A stretch of 38,851 nucleotides of DNA from the NCBI GenBank assembly GCA_944384825.1, contig CALWUT010000020.1, positions 1 through 38,851 of the forward strand. The letters are read 5' to 3'. The notes beneath the pieces were generated by a model. That model did no database searches. It saw only the letters and a list, made by a program, of their open reading frames with translations, and was not told where the DNA came from. This DNA comes from an uncultured Clostridia bacterium (GTDB lineage Bacteria; Bacillota; Clostridia; Oscillospirales; Acutalibacteraceae). Below, piece after piece: positions 9,557 through 20,939 of the stretch. The translations under genes and the position numbers were made by a program. Each line of letters starts with the position of its first letter. Within the stretch, counting starts at the first letter, position 1.

Positions 9557-10134
9557 TTATATTATTTTTATATTTCTTAAAACTCCTGCGTTTCTGCTAT
9601 TTTTGAGGGCTACTGCTCCTATCATCTCAACTTCGCCTGTTTTTACTGCTCCAGGTTGTGAGAAATCGGGGAGATAGCTATCAATTACTTTATCTCCTGT
9701 AACTGTTACACCTAAAAACCCGTCGTATCCGTCAAATTTGGCAGCATAAATGTCTGTTAAGCCTGTAACTGCCACTTTGCTTTCACTTTCTCCAAATTCT
9801 CTTGACTGTATGCCTATAATAGGTGTTTCAGTTACAGTTTCTCCACTTACAGAATACTTATTTTTTAAGTCTATAATTCTTACTTTATTTTCTCCAATTG
9901 TAGTTACAACCCTGCCAAACGCTTCTTCGCTTTCCGTTTTATATCCTAAAACTCTTGCAACTGTCTGTATTTTGGTTTTCATATCTCCATTTACCATTAT
10001 TGCTGTTGCATTTGTGCTATTTATAAGTTTTAATAGTAGCTCATAGAATACATCTGCATTTTCTTTTACTCCTTTATACGTTTTTTACGTGTATCGTACA
10101 CGACTAAAGTTTTCGCTTCTTTTATGTCTTGCCT
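9557..10134 (-). pseudogene. Major capsid protein, C-terminal remnant
   Basis: The intact stretch 9557-9997 (146 residues from an internal ATG with no ribosome site) matches the C-terminal half of HK97-fold major capsid proteins: an MKTKIQTVARVLGY segment, then VRIIDLKNKY and a final VALKNSRNAGVLRNIKI. The same protein continues upstream without a start (KTYKGVKENADVFYELLLK). If one A is added to the A6 run at 10081-10086 it extends further as RQDIKEAKTLVVYDTRKK up to 10134. There it ends against the hicAB terminator. At least the first third of the protein, plus scaffold or protease, is absent. This copy cannot make a capsid. Confidence 0.82.
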
Positions 10135-10145
10135 TTAAAAAGACA

Positions 10146-10172
10146 AAAGAAAAACCACCTCTTAGGTGGTCT
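10146..10172 (-). terminator. Intrinsic terminator after hicAB
   Basis: On the minus strand ACCACCT, an AAG loop and AGGTGGT form a perfect 7-bp hairpin followed by TTTTCTTTT. It lies 22 bases after the hicB stop. It would end hicAB transcripts and separates that cassette from the capsid remnant. Confidence 0.85.
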
Positions 10173-10193
10173 GTAATCTAAAATATTTTTATA

Positions 10194-10544
10194 CTAGTTA
10201 GCAAGTTTAAAAAGTGCGTATTGATTTAAGCTAACTCCTTCTCGCTGAGCCTTTAATGCTAAATTTTTGTGTAAGGTTTTAGGAATCCTTATAACAAATT
10301 TTCCGCTATATTCTTCCTTTTCAGAAGCTAAAGGCAAAGGAACTTTCATATTTTCCTCTATCATTTCTGATATATGAAGCTCCATAGCTTCACGAATATT
10401 TTTATAAGCTTCTTCAACTGTTTTTCCGTCGCTCATACAACCTGGAAATTCGTCTACCGTTGCAAAAAAATAATGTCCGCTTTCATCATTTATTTCTTGA
10501 ATAGATATTTTATATGGAAGTTTTAAATATTCACTTGCATTCAT
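10194..10544 (-). CDS. hicB: HicB-family antitoxin
   Basis: This 116-residue protein has the HicB fold: a partial RNase H-like N-terminus with FFATVDEFPGCMSDGKTVEEA (about residues 26-46) and a C-terminal ribbon-helix-helix segment (KFVIRIPKTLHKNLALKAQR) that binds DNA. HicB neutralises HicA and represses the operon. It overlaps hicA by 4 bases, with toxin first and antitoxin second, the usual hicAB order. The cassette has its own promoter and terminator and sits inside the capsid locus. Confidence 0.92.
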   Translation of the reverse strand: MNASEYLKLPYKISIQEINDESGHYFFATVDEFPGCMSDGKTVEEAYKNIREAMELHISEMIEENMKVPLPLASEKEEYSGKFVIRIPKTLHKNLALKAQREGVSLNQYALFKLAN

Positions 10545-13306: not shown

Positions 13307-14035
13307 TTATTCTGCAAGTAAATTTTTATACTGTTTTATACTTAAGTCTAAAATCATTTCATAAAATGGCTCTAAGTTTCCTTTGGTGTGGTATTCATCT
13401 AATGTCTCATAATACTTTAATCTGTCCTTTTTCTTGATATTTACAGCCAAAAAGTTATTTGAAAGTAACTGATAGTTCATCATAAGTCTTGATGTTCTTC
13501 CGTTTCCATCTTCAAATGGATGTATCTTAACAAATTCTCCATGAGTATATGCCGCTAACTTCACACCATTATCCTTATATTTACTAGTCAATGTACTCCA
13601 AAATTCTTTTATTTGACTATACATTTCATTTGGAAGTGGTGGCTTATGTTTTGCACCTTTAATCCAAACCTGTACGTTTCTATAAATCCCACCTGTAAAT
13701 ATATTGCTCATCAATATATTATGTATATTTTTTGTTATTTCTTCGTTCAGACTTTTCTTCTCATTAATACATTCTTTTACGTAATTAAAAGCGTTCTGAT
13801 GGTTTACTATTTCATATATTTCCCTAAGAGATTTTTCCCCAACTGATATTTTATCGTCTAGAATTGTTTTAACTTCCTGTAATGTTAATGTATTTCCCTC
13901 AATAGCAGTTGATTCGTGAGTATATTCTATTTCAAAACTTTCTAAATAATTTTTGAATGCATACGAAGAATTATACAAGCTACTTTTTAAAAATTTTTTT
14001 CTTAAATCAAGCAATATATCGTATTTATCTTTCAC
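13307..14035 (-). CDS. Fic-domain AMPylase-type protein (class II)
   Basis: This 242-residue protein carries the complete Fic catalytic motif HPFEDGNGRTSR at residues 172-183, with the catalytic His and the anion-binding loop intact. An inhibitory motif STAIEGN (residues 42-48, pattern S/T-x-x-x-E-G/N) lies N-terminal, placing it in class II, where the inhibitory helix is in the same protein. Fic enzymes transfer AMP or other nucleotide moieties to protein side chains. The start is GTG 14035 after AGGAGG. It is inserted between terminase and portal with its own terminator, so it looks like a moron carried by the phage. Target unknown. Toxin, host-modifying or anti-defence roles are all possible. 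Confidence 0.9.
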   Translation of the reverse strand: MKDKYDILLDLRKKFLKSSLYNSSYAFKNYLESFEIEYTHESTAIEGNTLTLQEVKTILDDKISVGEKSLREIYEIVNHQNAFNYVKECINEKKSLNEEITKNIHNILMSNIFTGGIYRNVQVWIKGAKHKPPLPNEMYSQIKEFWSTLTSKYKDNGVKLAAYTHGEFVKIHPFEDGNGRTSRLMMNYQLLSNNFLAVNIKKKDRLKYYETLDEYHTKGNLEPFYEMILDLSIKQYKNLLAE

Positions 14036-14072: not shown

Positions 14073-15332
14073 CTAATATAGCCATTTACCTTTGGTTATC
14101 TGTCTTAAAAGGCTTGCTAAACTATCTGGACTATCATCATGTGGAGCATTTTCTGTATAATCTAAAATTTCATTTATATATTCGGGAGAAGTACACTCTA
14201 AGAACGTAATATTTTTCCAATTTTGCTTTAAATACGTACTTATTTTAATAAATTTATTCATACTTTCTTGATAATCACCTACTATAAAACCTCTGTTTCT
14301 AAGTTCTTTTGCTAGGTACCCTTTATCTGCGTTTCTTTCACAATAAATCGTACCTACTTTGTAAATACGCATATAATTCGAAATGATATTCAAACAATCG
14401 TCAACATGCTTACTCCAACGCATTCCAAACACAATAAATTTATCTCCATGCTGTTTTAAAACTGTAAAAGCTGTTCCGTCTGCACCGCCATAACTTGCGT
14501 CTATGTGAGCAATTCCACCGAGCATTAAGTCGTTATCATTAGTAAATATGGGATTGCTAAACATACAATCCTCGTCTGCAATATGCTTTAGTTCATAGTT
14601 TGCACAAAACAAAGAGGGAGACATTACCCCTCTTATCTGTTCCAGTTTATCTCTTGTTATTAAATGCGTTTGGTAACAGTCATATTTTTGAATGTTCGGC
14701 ATAATTGAAATACAATCCTCTTTATGCCAAGGTGTACCTGTATTTACAATTCTTCCACTACGATTTTTTATATTTTGCAGTTCCATATATGAAAGTCTTG
14801 TAAGCTCTCGCTCCGGTTTGCTTATTCTATCTTTCAAGTTTACAATATCGTCTGTAATTACTGTATCGGCATGCTTCCCTGTGATAGATGTTTTTATTCC
14901 TAAACCTAAAATTTGACTTGTACCTTTGGTATGTGTAGCTAAATTGGTACTTAAATTAAAAGCTGATACCTCTCTAAAAACTAAATCTATCCCATAAATT
15001 GCTTTTACTAAAAATAGATAAAGTTTACTATTCATTATTTTATATATTTGCTTGATTACTTCTTTGACATCACTATCTGTTTTTCTAAGAATAATTATGT
15101 TTTTGTTCGGCTCTAAAATTAGCATTAATGATACTGCAATCGTCAAACAAGTTGTTTTGTAGCTTCCTCTGTGAGCAAGTAGGGTATAGTCTTTATTGCT
15201 GTTTATTCCCATAATGTTTTTTATCCACTCATTGTGAAGTATAGTTAAGTCTCTAAATCCAACTTTTTGTCCTATAATGTACGGCTCATCAGTAATTAAA
15301 TCTAAATACTCAAATTTATTTATTTCATTCAT
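14073..15332 (-). CDS. terL: Terminase large subunit
   Basis: This 419-residue protein has an N-terminal ATPase with an atypical Walker A, AHRGSYKTT (about residues 53-61), and a Walker B region with TVITDDIV (about 159-166). The C-terminal RNase H-like nuclease begins at HIDASYGGADGTAF (about 271-284) and has a later acidic residue cluster near ENAPHDDSPDSLASLL (about 392-407). It pumps and cuts DNA at the portal. It overlaps the small subunit by 8 bases. The length is typical of the shorter Firmicutes phage TerL proteins, and all key regions are present. Confidence 0.92.
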   Translation of the reverse strand: MNEINKFEYLDLITDEPYIIGQKVGFRDLTILHNEWIKNIMGINSNKDYTLLAHRGSYKTTCLTIAVSLMLILEPNKNIIILRKTDSDVKEVIKQIYKIMNSKLYLFLVKAIYGIDLVFREVSAFNLSTNLATHTKGTSQILGLGIKTSITGKHADTVITDDIVNLKDRISKPERELTRLSYMELQNIKNRSGRIVNTGTPWHKEDCISIMPNIQKYDCYQTHLITRDKLEQIRGVMSPSLFCANYELKHIADEDCMFSNPIFTNDNDLMLGGIAHIDASYGGADGTAFTVLKQHGDKFIVFGMRWSKHVDDCLNIISNYMRIYKVGTIYCERNADKGYLAKELRNRGFIVGDYQESMNKFIKISTYLKQNWKNITFLECTSPEYINEILDYTENAPHDDSPDSLASLLRQITKGKWLY

Positions 15333-15728
15333 TTTTTATTCTCTTCTTTGAAGATAAATATTCTTGAATTTCTAAAATAGTGTTATCCTGTGAGGTTATT
15401 TGTATTTTCTCTGCTGGTTTTTCTCCAGCAAGTTCAATTAAATCTTTTAGTATTCTGCTATCACCCTTTTTTACTCCTGTTACAAAAACTGAAATTACTA
15501 AAGCTAGAAGATTATTTTTATCTTTTTCACCTTTGTAAATATCCATTTTATCAACCATTTTTTTAAGTTCAGGAAGCGTTATTCCTGAATATAATACATC
15601 TTTTATAACTTTCTGTGCGTTTTTTTAATCTGTTTATTTTTGTTAGCTTCTTTTGCTCCTTTTCTTGAAATTTCTTTGCGTTCTCTTTGCGTACGTTGAT
15701 TTTGAGGTATTAAATTCTCATTATTCAT
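15325..15728 (-). pseudogene. terS: Terminase small subunit, split by a frameshift in an A7 run
   Basis: The downstream 77 residues (15325-15558) resemble the C-terminal half of TerS, with GDSRILKDLIELAGEKPAEK. The N-terminal half starts at ATG 15728 with MNNENLIPQNQRTQRERKEI but stops early. One extra base in the A7 run at 15620-15626 (minus strand) would join both into a 134-residue protein of normal TerS length. In the present sequence a -1 slip on that run would also restore it. TerS recognises the packaging site. This may be a real mutation, a slippage-expressed gene or a sequencing indel. The gene follows folE by 11 bases. Confidence 0.75.
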
Positions 15729-15739
15729 CTTGACACCTA

Positions 15740-16315
15740 CTATGTTTTTAGACTATTTAAAAAGGATATCTTTATTTCGTCATTGTCAGAAAATATACCA
15801 CTAAAATTTGTTGTAATCGTTTCAGAACTTCCGTTTTTTATTCCTCTTGCTGTTACACAACTGTGTTTAGCTTTTATATGTACTGCAATATCTTCACTTT
15901 TAGTTAAAATTTTCATAACTTCTAAAATATCGTTGCCTATGCGTTCTTGTAATTGTAATCGTTTACATATCATCTCACTTGCTCTAACTATCTTTGAAAG
16001 ACCTAAAACAAAATTATTTGGTATATATGCAACACTTATTTTCATATCGTAAATCAATGCAATATGATGCTCACATAAGCTAAACGCTTCAATGTCTTTA
16101 ACTACTACCATATCCTTTGAGTTTGTTTTATTATTAATAGGAAAAATTTTATCAACGCTTTTTGCGATTTCTTTATTTGAGATATTTTGATATTGTGTGA
16201 GTTCTGAAAGCATTTTTAAATATCTTTTTGGTGTGTCTTCAAGTAACTCTATATTGAGCGATTTAAAAAGATTTATTATCGATTTTTCTCCTTTTTTATT
16301 ACTTCTCACGAGCAT
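15740..16315 (-). CDS. folE: GTP cyclohydrolase I (preQ0 pathway step 1)
   Basis: This 191-residue protein has the FolE zinc site: Cys81 and His84 in LCEHH and Cys153 in KHSCVTARG. It also has the substrate-binding LQERIGNDI segment (residues 122-130). FolE converts GTP to 7,8-dihydroneopterin triphosphate. In this operon it supplies QueD. It overlaps the queE stop by 17 bases and is preceded by GGGAGG close to its ATG. The last residues are short and polar with no extra domain. Host folate genes are not nearby, so a dedicated role in 7-deazaguanine synthesis is the natural reading. Confidence 0.92.
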   Translation of the reverse strand: MLVRSNKKGEKSIINLFKSLNIELLEDTPKRYLKMLSELTQYQNISNKEIAKSVDKIFPINNKTNSKDMVVVKDIEAFSLCEHHIALIYDMKISVAYIPNNFVLGLSKIVRASEMICKRLQLQERIGNDILEVMKILTKSEDIAVHIKAKHSCVTARGIKNGSSETITTNFSGIFSDNDEIKISFLNSLKT

Positions 16316-16994
16316 TTACCTCCCATAAAATTTTATGTAATTGAACTTGCATTCTTAAATTTTGATAATTATTTTTAATAATATACTCTGCAATTTCAGT
16401 GGGAGAGAGCATATCATAACACGGAGATACCATTACATTTGTATTTCTAAATCTGTTTGCAATTTTTCTCGCTGCTTCAATATTTTCAATCGATTTTACA
16501 ATAACTTTTATGCAGTCATTTTTATTCAACTTTTCATATCCTAAATGGCTACTTACTATATATTCATAATCTTTTAGATATTCAATTTTAAAGTCAGCAC
16601 TAAAACATACTTTTTGCTCTTGATGATATTTACTTAGTAATTTAATAAATATATCTAAATACTTTCCGTTTGTTTCAATCTCAATAATCTCTGTTCCGTT
16701 TTTAAGCAGCCAATCAATCAACTTTTTTAATTTAGTATGATTTTGACAATGAGGTTCTCCACCAGTTATAATTACAAACTTCCTATTTTTTAATTTCTTC
16801 AATAGATTGTCGTTAAGATTTATATAATCTATATCCAAATAGTATGATACTTCATTATGATACTTCGTATCGCAATATGAACACCTCATATTACAACCAC
16901 TAAATCGTATAAAAGTAGCGAGCGTTCCTGAACGCAAACCCTCGCCCGATATTGAACTAAATATTTCACATATCTCTAAATTTTTATCGTTCAT
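16299..16994 (-). CDS. queE: 7-carboxy-7-deazaguanine synthase (radical SAM)
   Basis: This 231-residue protein has the QueE N-terminus (FSSISGEGLRSG), the CX3CX2C cluster motif CNMRCSYC with Cys34, Cys38 and Cys41, and the SAM-binding ITGGEP (residues 76-81). It turns 6-carboxytetrahydropterin into 7-carboxy-7-deazaguanine. It overlaps the queD stop by 11 bases. The length is usual for QueE. All key residues are present. Confidence 0.94.
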   Translation of the reverse strand: MNDKNLEICEIFSSISGEGLRSGTLATFIRFSGCNMRCSYCDTKYHNEVSYYLDIDYINLNDNLLKKLKNRKFVIITGGEPHCQNHTKLKKLIDWLLKNGTEIIEIETNGKYLDIFIKLLSKYHQEQKVCFSADFKIEYLKDYEYIVSSHLGYEKLNKNDCIKVIVKSIENIEAARKIANRFRNTNVMVSPCYDMLSPTEIAEYIIKNNYQNLRMQVQLHKILWEVNAREK

Positions 16995-17313
16995 AAATAG
17001 CTGTGTTCCCTTCGCTTTCTTGTACTGTTACTCTGTAACATTGTTGTCCTATCTCATCACAAATAAACTTTGCTATGTTTTCTGCTGTGGGTTGTTCTAC
17101 TATATTGTTTAAATTCTTATGGTCTAATTTATCCATAATAGATTTTTTCATATCCATAAAATCATAAACCATGCTATTTTCATTGAGTTTATCAGACTTT
17201 AAATAAATATATACTATCCAATTATGACCATGTAAGTTTTCACATTTACTATTATAACTTAATTTAAGCTTATGACTTGCCGAGATTTCAAGCTTTTTAA
17301 TTATCGTATACAC
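16984..17313 (-). CDS. queD: 6-carboxytetrahydropterin synthase
   Basis: A short member of the QueD/PTPS family (about 109 residues). Zinc ligands are seen in SASHKL and NLHGHNW (His16, His30 and His32 counted from the TTG at 17319), the catalytic Cys in KCENLHGH, and the pterin-anchoring Glu near the C-terminus in VQESEGN. QueD converts dihydroneopterin triphosphate to 6-carboxytetrahydropterin. I place the start at GTG 17313, eight bases after AGGAG. The TTG at 17319 overlaps the queC stop but lies only two bases from the Shine-Dalgarno site. It is coupled to queC upstream and queE downstream. Confidence 0.93.
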   Translation of the reverse strand: MYTIIKKLEISASHKLKLSYNSKCENLHGHNWIVYIYLKSDKLNENSMVYDFMDMKKSIMDKLDHKNLNNIVEQPTAENIAKFICDEIGQQCYRVTVQESEGNTAIYER

Positions 17314-17315
17314 TT

Positions 17316-18239
17316 TCAAAACTCCTTTTTACTTCTATCGTCAATTAAAGTATGATAGGGAAGTTTACTCATTATCAAAGCATCGTACTTTACACCATGT
17401 TTTTTTAACCACTCTTTTGTATCTTTTCTGTCTACTCCCAATCTAGCAGTAAATAACAGCTTATATCCATCTAAATTGTTTAGTTTGTCAATATTACTTT
17501 TAATCGGAATTTTTTTTAAAATTGGTTTGCTGCTGCATTCACATAAAATACCGTCAATATCTATTGCTGTAACTTTATTGCTTTTTTGCAAATAAAATAT
17601 AAGTCTACTCAATCTATCTCTGTCTTTTGGATGAATTTTATTCAAATTTTCGTGTATAATTCTTTCACTTAATTTAACTCCTGTCTTCAGACCCATATTT
17701 TCTAATAAAACAGTCCTACGTAAACACGCAGGACAATCACCGCAAGGCTTATCATTAATAGGATTGTAACAGGAAAAAGTATCGAGTAGCTTTTGTTTGT
17801 CAGAAAAATCCTCTATCATCTGTTCTTTTGATTTATTCCAATACGGACTTTTTACAATTACCTTTTTGCCATTTAATTTTTCGTTTGCATATCTGCTTAG
17901 AATTTTAGACATTTTTTCACATTCGTACTCTGATTTATCAATATGGCTATCATACTTATTTGCTCCAAGATAAATTATATCTGGTGAGTAAAACATACTG
18001 GCAAGCGTAACTAAGCATAAATTTCTATTATTTATATAAAAGTTATCGCTTATATTTGTACTTTTACCTGTTGTATTGATAGTGATTTTTTCAAATTTAA
18101 CTCCTAACTTTTTTAATGCCTTCAATTCTTGTTTTGCATATTTTTGTCCGAAGTCTACATACAAATTTATTCCTTCCGTAATTTCTTTGGACATTATATA
18201 GCTATCAATTCCACCTGAAACTAATTTAACAACCTTCAT
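17316..18239 (-). CDS. queC: 7-cyano-7-deazaguanine synthase fused to a C-terminal HAD-like domain
   Basis: Residues 1-210 are a complete QueC: the PP-loop SGGIDS (8-13) and zinc cysteines in FSCYNP and CGDCPACLRR (Cys157, 166, 169, 172). It makes preQ0 from 7-carboxy-7-deazaguanine, ammonia and ATP. Residues about 222-307 form an extra domain with AIDIDGILCE (Asp227, Asp229), LLFTAR (264-266 TAR) and LIDDRS (Asp300, Asp301). This is the compact HAD-phosphatase pattern seen in capsule-associated and nucleotidase-like HADs. Normal QueC ends near residue 220-230, so this is a fusion. I start at ATG 18239, in the TAATG overlap with dpdA and after GGGAG. The HAD role is unknown. Confidence 0.93.
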   Translation of the reverse strand: MKVVKLVSGGIDSYIMSKEITEGINLYVDFGQKYAKQELKALKKLGVKFEKITINTTGKSTNISDNFYINNRNLCLVTLASMFYSPDIIYLGANKYDSHIDKSEYECEKMSKILSRYANEKLNGKKVIVKSPYWNKSKEQMIEDFSDKQKLLDTFSCYNPINDKPCGDCPACLRRTVLLENMGLKTGVKLSERIIHENLNKIHPKDRDRLSRLIFYLQKSNKVTAIDIDGILCECSSKPILKKIPIKSNIDKLNNLDGYKLLFTARLGVDRKDTKEWLKKHGVKYDALIMSKLPYHTLIDDRSKKEF

Positions 18240-18964
18240 TACTTCAACTCCCAATATTTCTGCATTTTTATCCATTCTTTTAAGCTATACTCCATAGCAT
18301 TTTTGTAGTCTGCTATTCTTGCGTTTTCTTTTACATAATATTTAATTTTTTCGTCTATAAATTGCGGTACTTGCGTAGCTCTGCAACAATTTAACCATGT
18401 TGTGCTGTCTACGCTATAAAAACGTGATGATAAAGTTTTTCTGTCCGTTGACCCTAAAATATGTACTTTCGTTTTATTTTTAATAGCTATATCTTCAAAC
18501 CACCTATAATATTTTTGTATATTAGACTTTACTTTTTTATCGGTCATTCCACCAATAGCTATATAATCATAATTTTCACATAAATTTATATATTCATCTT
18601 TACCTCTTGTTATATGCCAAACTGGGATACATTTCTTACCTGTCTCATATTGGAGTATCTTTCTGTATTCTAAAACTTTTTCATATCCTACGACATCGTC
18701 TATGTCAAGTTCAAAAAAGTATTTCACATCATATTTGTTTATAAAATTTATATAATTTTTTAGATAACTATCAAAATCAAGATTTTTATGTTTTTTGGAG
18801 TTCATAAACGTGTATGCTCCGCTATCAAGCAAAAACATTTCGCTATTTTTAATAAATGGTATCTGCCATTCTTTAAAATAAAAATAACTTTCTAAAAGAA
18901 ATTTTGGTGTGTTTCTCTTCACTATTTCTTTATACGTAGATGTGCCGGCAATAAATATTTTCAT
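18239..18964 (-). CDS. dpdA: DpdA-like DNA 7-deazaguanine transglycosylase (TGT superfamily)
   Basis: This 241-residue protein resembles the phage tRNA-guanine-transglycosylase-like family: LLDSGAYTF (45-53), an acidic ELDIDD (85-90), WHITRG (116-121), YIAIGGM (134-140) and VDSTTW (185-190). It is far shorter than bacterial tRNA TGT (about 370-390 residues) and lacks a recognisable CxCxxC zinc motif, though Cys193-Cys194 lie where a metal site could be. In phages DpdA exchanges guanine in DNA for preQ0 or a derivative. Linkage to a complete preQ0 operon supports that role. It is coupled to queC, and its ATG overlaps the end of the ParB-like gene in its unshifted frame. Confidence 0.82.
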   Translation of the reverse strand: MKIFIAGTSTYKEIVKRNTPKFLLESYFYFKEWQIPFIKNSEMFLLDSGAYTFMNSKKHKNLDFDSYLKNYINFINKYDVKYFFELDIDDVVGYEKVLEYRKILQYETGKKCIPVWHITRGKDEYINLCENYDYIAIGGMTDKKVKSNIQKYYRWFEDIAIKNKTKVHILGSTDRKTLSSRFYSVDSTTWLNCCRATQVPQFIDEKIKYYVKENARIADYKNAMEYSLKEWIKMQKYWELK

Positions 18965-19463
18965 GGTGTAAATTCATGTCCACAAGCTGGGCAAACAACC
19001 TTTTTCCCTTTTTAGTTTTTTCGCTTTCATGCTCTGTAAATAAGCTATCAATATCCACTTCCTTACCAAAAATATAATCAAGTTCAAAATCTAAAAAGCC
19101 TAATTCTTCTAAATTAAATCCAAAGTTTTTTAGTTCGATTAATTCATCTTTTAATAACTCGTCATCCCAGTTTGATTTTTCGTGTATTTTGTTATCGGCT
19201 ATCCTAAACGCTTTTATCTGTTTATCTGTTAAATTTTCGGCTCTTATACAAGGTACAGTTTTTAAATTTAATTCTTTACTTGCTAAATATCTTGTGTGTC
19301 CGCAGATTATTACGTTATCTTTGTCAATTACGATAGGGACTAAAAATCCGAAATTTTTAATAGAGTTTACAAAATACTTAACTGCTTTTTCGTTAATTCT
19401 AGGGTTGTTTTCGTAAGCATTTAACTCTTTTAATTCAATTTCTTGGGTATTAATATCAATCAC
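18961..19463 (-). CDS. ParB/Srx-fold protein with out-of-frame zinc-knuckle tail
   Basis: Residues 1-90 match the ParB N-terminal nuclease-like fold, with IVIDKDNVIICGHTRYLASK (44-63) holding the GHTR motif. The current frame ends at 18930 inside dpdA with an unlikely tail (HHENIYCRHIYV). A -1 shift at G_GGA_AAA (19008-19002) gives the tail KVVCPACGHEFTP, a CxxC zinc knuckle common at the end of phage ParB-like proteins. It stops in ATGA, overlapping the dpdA start. So the frame is either mutated, mis-sequenced or frameshifted in translation. Start GTG 19463 has GGAG only one base away, so the exact start is uncertain. Its link to DNA modification suggests a DNA-targeting or nicking partner of DpdA, which is inference. 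Confidence 0.78.
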
Positions 19464-20211: not shown

Positions 20212-20559
20212 TTAAAAACTCCTCTTTACGCTAGGGGGAGTTTTTTCTATTCTTTTCTGTGCTGTTTTGTAAACTTTTTTATCATCTCTAACTGAAATTA
20301 CTATTATTTCCATTACTCCGTCTTTTCTCTCTATTTTATAAACAACTCTTATACCTATTTTCAGTAGCTTTATTTTAAGTAACCCTGCTAACTTAATTCC
20401 CGATTGATTTTCAAGAGGTTTACCATATCCGCCCTCATTTTTAGGCAGAGGATTCTCTAAAACTTTTCTTATGGCTTTAATGACTAATTTTTGCTGTGAA
20501 TTATCCAAACTCTCTAAATCTTTATAAGCGTCTTCTGAATATTTTAAAATCCATTCCAT
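20212..20559 (-). CDS. RelE/ParE-family toxin
   Basis: This 115-residue protein has the RelE superfamily pattern: WILKYSEDAYKDLESLD at the N-terminus, then GIRVVYKIERKDG and IVISVRDDKKVYKTAQKRI. RelE toxins cleave mRNA in the ribosome, whereas ParE members poison gyrase. The basic C-terminal region favours RelE. It follows a Phd-type antitoxin with a one-base overlap and converges on yoeB. Confidence 0.87.
   Translation of the reverse strand: MEWILKYSEDAYKDLESLDNSQQKLVIKAIRKVLENPLPKNEGGYGKPLENQSGIKLAGLLKIKLLKIGIRVVYKIERKDGVMEIIVISVRDDKKVYKTAQKRIEKTPPSVKRSF
20214..20245. terminator. Bidirectional terminator between two toxin genes
   Basis: AAAAACTCC and GGAGTTTTT form a 9-bp stem with T runs on both strands. 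It lies between the converging yoeB and relE-like genes and overlaps the end of the latter. Confidence 0.85.
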
Positions 20560-20876
20560 TATTCGATTTCAACCTCAACTTCATCAATATCTTCATTGGT
20601 TATGTTAAGTCTTTGCATAACTTCTTCTTCTGAAATCGTTTTATAATTAGGACTACTCATTCTTTTGTTAGCTTCTGCATAAAGTCTGTAATTTTCTAAT
20701 TCTTCAAGCATATTTTCATACTCTTGTGGATTCAAAAGTACACAAGTCGGAACGTTATTTCTTATTACTATTTTTGCACCCTCTTTTGATACTTCATCAA
20801 AAACTTTTCCAGCTTCGCCCTTATTAAACCTTGATATTGGCACGATAGAGTTCATAATATCTCTTGCAGTATTCAT
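20559..20876 (-). CDS. Phd/YefM-family antitoxin
   Basis: The first 21 codons of the longer frame cover the promoter, so I start at ATG 20876, preceded by TTAGGAGATGAT. The 105-residue protein then begins MNTARDIMNSIVPISRFNKG, a typical Phd N-terminal DNA-binding pattern. A GAKIVIRNNVPTCVLL strand pair follows, and it ends in a very acidic tail (DEVEVEIE). It pairs with the RelE-like toxin downstream. Confidence 0.88.
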   Translation of the reverse strand: MNTARDIMNSIVPISRFNKGEAGKVFDEVSKEGAKIVIRNNVPTCVLLNPQEYENMLEELENYRLYAEANKRMSSPNYKTISEEEVMQRLNITNEDIDEVEVEIE

Positions 20877-20910
20877 AATATCATCTCCTAAAATTATTGT
20901 TTCTAATATT

Positions 20911-20939
20911 ATTATATTATATGCAAGATAATTTGTCAA
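20911..20939 (-). promoter_or_regulatory. Consensus promoter of the phd-relE pair
   Basis: On the minus strand TTGACA, exactly 17 bases and TATAAT match the consensus at every position. It lies 34 bases upstream of the antitoxin start, within AT-rich repeats suited to an operator. Confidence 0.88.

Follow-up and report, generated by a model that had tools for sequence, protein, structure and literature searches.

What would the prophage-borne cassette on the minus strand of a 38,851-nt stretch of DNA from an uncultured Clostridia bacterium (contig CALWUT010000020.1; this whole stretch is called the window here, and positions and strands refer to it) write into DNA? Six overlapping genes run from position 19463 down to 15740 and encode, in this order, a ParB-like protein, a DpdA-type transglycosylase, QueC, QueD, QueE and FolE. 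The cassette is very probably a prophage-borne phage system for modifying DNA with 7-deazaguanine. The kind of cassette is very likely, but a 2'-deoxy-preQ0 (dPreQ0) mark is not secure, since the QueC is divergent and fused to a HAD domain. A reading made from the sequence alone (the sequence-only reading) had proposed both the synthesis-and-insertion cassette and this mark; protein families, gene order, the predicted DpdA fold and purifying selection support the former, and the latter is not secured. The features are as follows.

18930 to 19463, minus strand: ParB-like protein with a ParB_N domain, 177 amino acids (aa), first gene of the cassette (phrog_620, 9.3e-51; Pfam PF02195).
18239 to 18964, minus strand: DpdA-type transglycosylase, 241 aa (phrog_887, 4.5e-44; alignment; predicted fold).
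17316 to 18275, minus strand: QueC gene, a QueC domain with a C-terminal HAD domain.
17676 to 18275, minus strand: QueC-like ATP-pyrophosphatase domain, residues 1 to about 200, of the "DK" group (PF06508, 1.1e-15; alignments; tree).
17316 to 17585, minus strand: putative HAD phosphatase domain, residues about 231 to 319, fused to QueC (phrog_1238, 2.8e-11; phrog_415, 4.8e-7).
16984 to 17319, minus strand: QueD, 111 aa, TTG start (PF01242, 2.3e-27; TIGR03367, 85.4 of 89.25 bits).
16299 to 16994, minus strand: QueE, radical SAM protein, 231 aa (TIGR03963, 2.3e-47, 161.5 of 260.1 bits; phrog_2076, 2.5e-33; Pfam radical SAM, 6.4e-10).
15740 to 16315, minus strand: FolE, GTP cyclohydrolase I, 191 aa (PF01227, 2e-48).
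15325 to 15558, minus strand: probable small terminase, 77 aa, from its position; it has no PHROG match.
14073 to 15332, minus strand: large terminase subunit (phrog_38, 3.3e-67).

Successive cassette genes overlap by 35 (ParB/DpdA), 37 (DpdA/QueC), 4 (QueC/QueD), 11 (QueD/QueE) and 17 nt (QueE/FolE), and all six reading frames are open. Coordinates and family matches, the latter well outside chance, therefore bear out the arrangement first proposed, in which overlapping FolE, QueD, QueE, QueC and DpdA genes have a ParB-like gene in front and a terminase behind. The four synthesis proteins score below their NCBIfam equivalog cut-offs (QueC 36.3 of 150.3 bits, QueE 161.5 of 260.1, QueD 85.4 of 89.25, FolE 154.6 of 181.6), and the shortfall is by far the largest for QueC.

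The elements of a DpdA-type system are present, namely a TGT-like DpdA with conserved aspartates, co-encoded with FolE, QueD, QueE and a QueC-family protein. No NCBIfam model matches DpdA, and the only Pfam family that it hits, DUF6610, stays under its cut-off. Its predicted structure has a mean confidence (pLDDT) of 90.7, and in a Foldseek comparison with the PDB, ranks 1–18 of the 50 matches listed are tRNA-guanine transglycosylases (TGT; best E 5e-6); the 20 matches with E up to 0.001 consist of these 18, then an aldolase and PdxJ. The structural comparison that the sequence-only reading had recommended thus agrees with it: the 241-residue protein is predicted to be a TGT-like barrel, not another fold. 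An alignment of 37 sequences (the window protein and 36 of 50 relatives from pattern scans) has 35 invariant columns, and D47-S-G-A, E85/D87/D89, KKCIPVWH (110–117) and S184-V-D186-S are conserved throughout, as are H117 and H168. D47 and D186 are presumably the equivalents of the catalytic Asp pair of TGT. No DpdA relative was found in the other 294 of the 295 genomes searched.

The QueC domain reaches the Pfam gathering score (58.2 vs 22) and carries SGGIDS at residues 20–25, NNRN at 82–85, HIDK at 111–114 and zinc cysteines at 169, 178, 181 and 184. The motifs SGGxDS and C(x)8CxxCxxC with its Tyr, the RN pair, K150 and the Asp of YPD are retained, whereas YPDC has become HIDK, YxQxHxxE has become FGQKYAKQE (FxQxYxxQE) and VPxRN has become NNRN. 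The earlier statement that the catalytic motifs of all four synthesis enzymes are intact consequently fails for QueC; it holds on inspection for FolE, QueD and QueE, judged by motifs that we take to be the relevant ones. In Cap9 the base is apparently stacked by a Tyr while an Asp reads its Watson-Crick edge, and B. subtilis QueC has the same Tyr/Asp pair (PMC13279940). The alignment indicates that the window QueC has lost the stacking Tyr and carries Lys in place of the YPDC Cys, and that Asp-based base recognition is probably kept.

The predicted model of the QueC-HAD protein is fair (pLDDT 67.0, with residues ~10–200 mostly at 80–90 and a poor HAD half), and its best Foldseek match is Cap9 (9nto, E 5e-9). 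A profile search of the PDB placed QueC 2pg3 first (1.7e-9), followed by Cap9 9nto (4.3e-7), QueC 3bl5 (4.8e-7) and QatC (1.5e-4). Membership of the Cap9 family was rejected because the YxDC motif is absent and the neighbours are que genes (CD-NTase was not searched for). Membership of the QatC family was rejected on the C(x)8 zinc spacing, the que neighbours and an NCBIfam QatC score of 24.3 of 280 bits (the QatABD partners were not searched for).

We infer the enzyme activities, the base in DNA and the protection that it gives as follows. FolE, QueD and QueE would convert GTP into 7-carboxy-7-deazaguanine (CDG); the divergent QueC would activate CDG with ATP and convert its carboxylate into the final C7 group; DpdA would swap guanine in phage DNA for the modified base, and this base would block host restriction enzymes. 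The default C7 group is a nitrile (dPreQ0), and the DK active site and the HAD domain leave an amide or an undescribed derivative possible. Enterobacter phage EC151 carries a DpdA relative (7e-7) and pathway genes, and its DNA strongly resists cutting by the type II enzymes tried on it, DraI being the exception (PMC8310023).

Several points weigh against this reading. The TM-scores between DpdA and TGT are 0.49–0.62 by query and only 0.35–0.45 by target, other barrel enzymes match from Foldseek rank 19 on, and a sequence-profile search of the PDB with DpdA gave chance matches only, none of them credible. The YPDC motif is absent from the window QueC, and its Tyr is essential in E. coli QueC, where the mutants Y35A, R99A, Y131A and Y189A are inactive and Y131F is partly active (PMC13329287). 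No published DNA analysis was found for any phage with a DK-type QueC. The capsid gene is truncated, and the prophage alone may never package DNA.

The divergence of QueC is not peculiar to the window. Used alone as query, the window protein found no relatives in IMG/VR, and a six-row DK profile gave 49 further loci (L-numbers denote fetched loci and G-numbers whole records; G348 is L053). A QueC was called DK when it lacked [YF][PASF]DC and had DK[SDNTG] in residues 70–170; by this rule the 79 QueC-like open reading frames (ORFs) in the loci used divide into 47 DK, 26 with [YF][PASF]DC (YxDC) and 6 other, the same phage being included twice in places (Moby, for example, in L056 and L099). Most QueC in the DK-profile loci are DK by construction, and the YxDC loci come mostly from the DpdA scan. 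The fetched stretches of the 47 DK ORFs hold DpdA in 31 cases (a count of the window's DpdA type), QueE in 38, FolE in 34 and QueD in 29.

A QueC tree of 67 rows (representatives, 8 controls and the window; motif columns omitted, quick search, no bootstrap) has one split with SH-aLRT support of 100, which separates 37 rows (33 DK and 4 other, with the window inside) from 30 (28 labelled YxDC and 2 other); the window and L005 form a long branch. All 8 control phage QueC (CAjan, EC151, Cellulophaga phi3ST:2, phi-pp2, Opia, JenK1, pf16 and HVTV-1) keep Tyr-x-Asp, though 6 of them were chosen from matches to a YxDC query and are biased toward it; Opia was used in place of Rosebush, being the same species in its record. 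The marks measured in DNA are dPreQ0 in CAjan and Rosebush and dPreQ1 in HVTV-1 (PMC6884629). Judged by its sequence, the window QueC is a member of the DK group, which this split separates from the QueC of those phages whose DNA was measured to contain dPreQ0. As separate observations, fourteen loci (L021, L022, L026, L030–L033, L035, L037, L041, L042, L044, L045 and L054) have a QueC that keeps YPDC and lacks the four zinc cysteines, in conflict with the published QueC signature, and L065 and L111 each have two different QueC-family genes with an adjoining HAD gene.

What the DK enzyme makes is the central question. As a tentative but quite possible answer, it would be a tolerant preQ0 synthase, so that the mark is dPreQ0 and the HAD partner clears AMP and pyrophosphate or a damaged intermediate. 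Only two of 38 DK records have a second QueC above the cut-off, one clear (G298) and one marginal (G327), and the L005 genome has a weak N-terminal match as well; the DK enzyme must therefore usually perform the step after CDG. SGGxDS, the four zinc cysteines, RN, K150 and the YPD Asp do not vary among the six DK proteins aligned, the canonical QueC 2pg3 is the top PDB profile match, and the DK loci have the same gene order as the YxDC loci. On the other hand, we know of no role of a HAD phosphatase in preQ0 synthesis, all the controls, CAjan, HVTV-1 and a Rosebushvirus among them, keep Tyr-x-Asp (with the bias in six of the picks), and the E. coli mutant Y131A is dead (PMC13329287). QueF was of no use in discriminating between products: none of the 38 DK records has a match above cut-off, and the two matches above it in 23 YxDC records both lie, by their coordinates, inside FolE genes.

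The HAD domain, which the sequence-only reading had overlooked, bears directly on this question. Residues D239-x-D241-G, T276, K304 and D312-D313, which we take to be the HAD motifs, were recognised by inspection, and together with the phrog_1238 and phrog_415 matches they mark the domain as a putative phosphatase; no Pfam HAD model matched residues ~231–319. The name of phrog_1238, "phosphoheptose isomerase", looks like a misannotation. Among the loci the fusion is shared only with L005, and against L005 the HAD part is constrained as much as the QueC part (ratio of nonsynonymous to synonymous substitution, dN/dS, 0.06 and 0.08). Elsewhere, separate HAD genes of 81–137 aa overlap or touch a DK QueC (L063, L065, L071, L072, L073, L082, L085, L093 and L097), and the same type adjoins QueC in L111 ("other" class) and L053 (YxDC). 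A second type, of 122–147 aa, adjoins the DK QueC of Moby, L087, L095, L096, L099, L100 and L102–L104, and the independent phrog_415 profile confirms it in Moby and six more records. In L081 a longer HAD frame adjoins the DK QueC, and the HAD of L078 matches the PNKP phosphatase domain (PF25109, 2.6e-16).

A search seeded with HAD alone found that 22 of 24 HAD ORFs touch QueC. Its models had been seeded with genes beside QueC, and adjacency was hence re-tested with independent PHROG HAD profiles on 50 whole records (32 DK, 18 YxDC), as the distance to the QueC match. In 23 DK virus records, 16 of 31 HAD matches lie within 310 nt of QueC, against a mean of 0.88 under random placement, and none of 20000 random draws reaches 16; the limit was chosen after viewing the gaps, of which the widest near one is 304 nt and the one after it 824 nt, and the statistic leaves out the fused L005 and ignores relatedness. 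The other 15 matches lie at 824 nt (one), at 2–6 kb (four) and beyond 17 kb (ten). The YxDC records have two HAD places, one beside QueC (G348) and one far from it (G342). Counted by hand per record, adjacency occurs in 17/32 DK vs 1/18 YxDC (Fisher p 0.0007, for records that are not independent); in clusters at 70% identity it occurs in 14/29 vs 1/9 (p 0.06, ORF-based), so that after clustering the difference is only suggestive.

These observations raise a second answer, which is rather doubtful: the DK QueC and its HAD partner would make an undescribed, C7-conjugated 7-deazaguanine that DpdA writes into phage DNA. QueC would join CDG to a small amine or alcohol, often phosphorylated, HAD would remove the phosphate, and the base inserted would be a 7-carboxamide or ester. 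The separation of DK from YxDC QueC in a tree built without the motif columns is consistent with this, as are the adjacency of HAD to QueC far beyond chance, their fusion in the window and the rank of Cap9 as the best fold match. Cap9 ligates CDG to a protein amine, QatC is proposed to act alike, and other amines are usable by QueC-family enzymes (PMC13279940). Moreover, 6 of 10 neighbour proteins scanned from 8 DK records are inositol-phosphate synthases (PF01658), one in each of Moby, L087, L095, L096, L098 and L103; the tested neighbour genes of L068 and L104 gave no such match. However, 15/29 DK clusters lack an adjoining HAD (ORF-based count), L098 has the inositol synthase without an adjoining HAD, the window cassette has neither an inositol synthase nor a glycosyltransferase, the YxDC QueC of L053 also adjoins a HAD gene, and canonical QueC, not Cap9, comes first by sequence profile. 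If this answer were true, phages from human faeces, from sewage and from many metagenomes would carry a family of hypermodified bases, and in the Menderavirus-like group the inositol-phosphate synthase would take part with QueC and HAD.

It is unlikely that the DK QueC stops at the amide, 7-amido-7-deazaguanine (ADG), or that CDG itself is inserted, the mark then being dADG or dCDG. The lost residues do sit at the substrate motif, and Salmonella phage 7-11, with a DpdA related to that of the window, has trace dADG (PMC6884629). Nevertheless, the ATP site is intact, HAD would have no role, and phage 7-11 is listed with DpdA but without preQ0 synthesis genes (PMC6884629).

Returning to the modification cassette as a whole, the question arises of whether it still serves a function. 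L005 is collinear with the window from the recombination genes to QueE at 78–84% DNA identity, and dN/dS against it is 0.11 for ParB, 0.13 for DpdA, 0.08 for the QueC part, 0.06 for the HAD part and 0.07 for QueD, values that come from one close relative at a synonymous divergence (dS) of 0.68–1.35, near saturation for some. The low ratios mostly reflect the time before stranding. The suggestion that the cassette is being kept stands for the phage lineage (dN/dS 0.06–0.13), not for the time since this prophage lost part of its capsid gene. The broken capsid is confirmed: of the major head protein only the C-terminal half is left (phrog_212 positions 173–295 of 301). It is improbable that the cassette is a relic that decays in a dead prophage and no longer has a function; the truncated head protein and some 3 kb of genes beyond those of L005 fit such a relic, while the six open frames and the low dN/dS, even if mostly older than the stranding, argue against it. 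The shortened head protein lies next to a HicB-like antitoxin gene (9557–10544), and an insertion or deletion event likely hit the capsid region. The stretch unmatched in L005 (19633–22682, ~3.05 kb) holds on inspection small toxin-antitoxin-like genes on both strands, an antitoxin match having been tested at 20559–20939. Between the terminase and portal genes there is a gene of the Fic/DOC family (13307–14035).

A single TGT and a single QueA are encoded in the host genome (1.18 Mb in 23 contigs, 98.6% complete); the earlier statement that no tRNA-type TGT is present thus applies to the window and not to the genome. That no QueF is present holds genome-wide at the Pfam cut-off (best 14.9 vs 27.3 bits). 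Neither a PTPS (QueD) nor, in the PF06508 search, a full-length QueC was found in the host besides those of the prophage; the other PF06508 matches cover the first third of the profile only. One is in a frame of 358 aa and passes the cut-off together with its neighbours, the other is in a frame of 479 aa and stays below it; on these partial matches both are taken for other ATP-pyrophosphatases. With TGT and QueA present and no QueC, QueD or QueF of its own found, in searches that covered these five families, the host looks as if it salvages a late queuosine precursor, and the prophage probably supplies the pathway. Although these gaps would suit a cassette that feeds host tRNA queuosine and not DNA, such a tRNA-only function is most improbable because there is no QueF above the cut-off to make preQ1; DpdA is besides co-encoded and conserved, and the DNA mark of CAjan needs dpdA (PMC6884629).

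The relatives give some further indications of how such cassettes are built. Searches by tblastn with DpdA gave 12 phage records, and pattern scans gave 6 genome and 44 IMG/VR loci; 2 of the former and all 50 of the latter make up the 52 DpdA loci analysed, among which L010 and L052 are the same contig, several are near-duplicates and several contigs are fragments. Synthesis genes with QueC and no YhhQ-type transporter occur in 22, and the transporter alone in 19; the remainder comprise transporter with QueC (3), synthesis genes without a recognised QueC (3), transporter with a synthesis-gene match (3) and neither (2). The first two sets would correspond to making the precursor and to importing it. 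The Vut_1 identity was confirmed in 2/2 YhhQ-type transporters tested, and a ParB-like match lies somewhere in the fetched stretch of 45/52 loci. In L011, L020 and L036, DpdA and QueC occur with the transporter, and the fetched stretch showed no QueD, QueE or FolE; this pattern would suit import of a precursor that comes before preQ0, in contigs that may be incomplete.

Other genes accompany the cassettes. Small phosphoribosyltransferases recur in them (their Pfam scores pass the cut-off in L012, L071 and L105 and fall short of it in L068 and L078); they lie at L012 1822–2184, L016 5995–6360, L025 2339–2713, L071 8808–9353 and L105 7706–8173, some of them between QueC and QueD, and might turn the guanine that DpdA sets free back into GTP, the substrate of FolE. 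Overlong FolE frames of 270–279 aa in L041, L042, L026 and L044 also score against phosphoribosyltransferase models and are possibly fusions of the two enzymes, start-site artefacts or model drift. A 732-aa DpdA frame in L057 (8677–10875) contains an intein splicing domain and a LAGLIDADG domain, and the DpdA cassette of L051 (10690–13881) includes a methyltransferase and a S-adenosylmethionine synthetase N-terminal domain, hinting at a methylated deazaguanine.

Phages are annotated by the rule that those with preQ0 genes and DpdA have dPreQ0, and for many of them this rule may not hold. The doubt arises from a group of phage QueC that lack the essential Tyr and recurrently occur together with a phosphatase, to which the window QueC is fused; in isolated DK phages such as Moby the product can be tested directly. 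A new product would extend the set of known anti-restriction bases. Should the product be preQ0, QueC could do without its published signature, and a role for the HAD partner would still have to be found.

The kind of cassette is already known. The phage cassettes of CAjan and Rosebush (Hutinet et al. 2019, PMC6884629) and of EC151 (PMC8310023), with DpdA or DpdA2, likewise hold FolE, QueD, QueE, QueC and DpdA together, and the window cassette, which has no amidotransferase, fits the second group of PMC6884629, with predicted preQ0 or ADG. It differs from these three in its HAD-fused QueC of the DK group, its compact 241-aa DpdA, its overlapping operon beside the terminase and its location in a defective prophage. 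Searches for literature on DK-like QueC, on a link between QueC and phosphatases and on Menderavirus DNA modification found none, and a 2023 paper on further phage 7-deazaguanines may treat DK phages; as far as the literature searched shows, the DK group, defined here by sequence, and its coupling to HAD appear to be new.

With canonical QueC (PMC13329287) the window protein shares SGGxDS, C(x)8CxxCxxC, the Tyr after the first zinc Cys, RN and the base-reading Asp, and it departs from it in HIDK for YPDC, FxQxYxxQE for YxQxHxxE, NN for VP and the C-terminal HAD domain. Cap9 of type IV CBASS, the best fold match, keeps YxDC, whereas QatC of the Qat system has threonines at that site and C(x)19CGxCxxRR; the window protein differs from QatC in both and has que genes and a terminase as neighbours. 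The Stenotrophomonas Menderavirus phage Moby shares with the window a DK QueC, an adjoining HAD gene, a TGT-like gene, QueE and FolE, and differs in being a 159-kb phage whose HAD is a separate gene and whose cassette includes an inositol-phosphate synthase.

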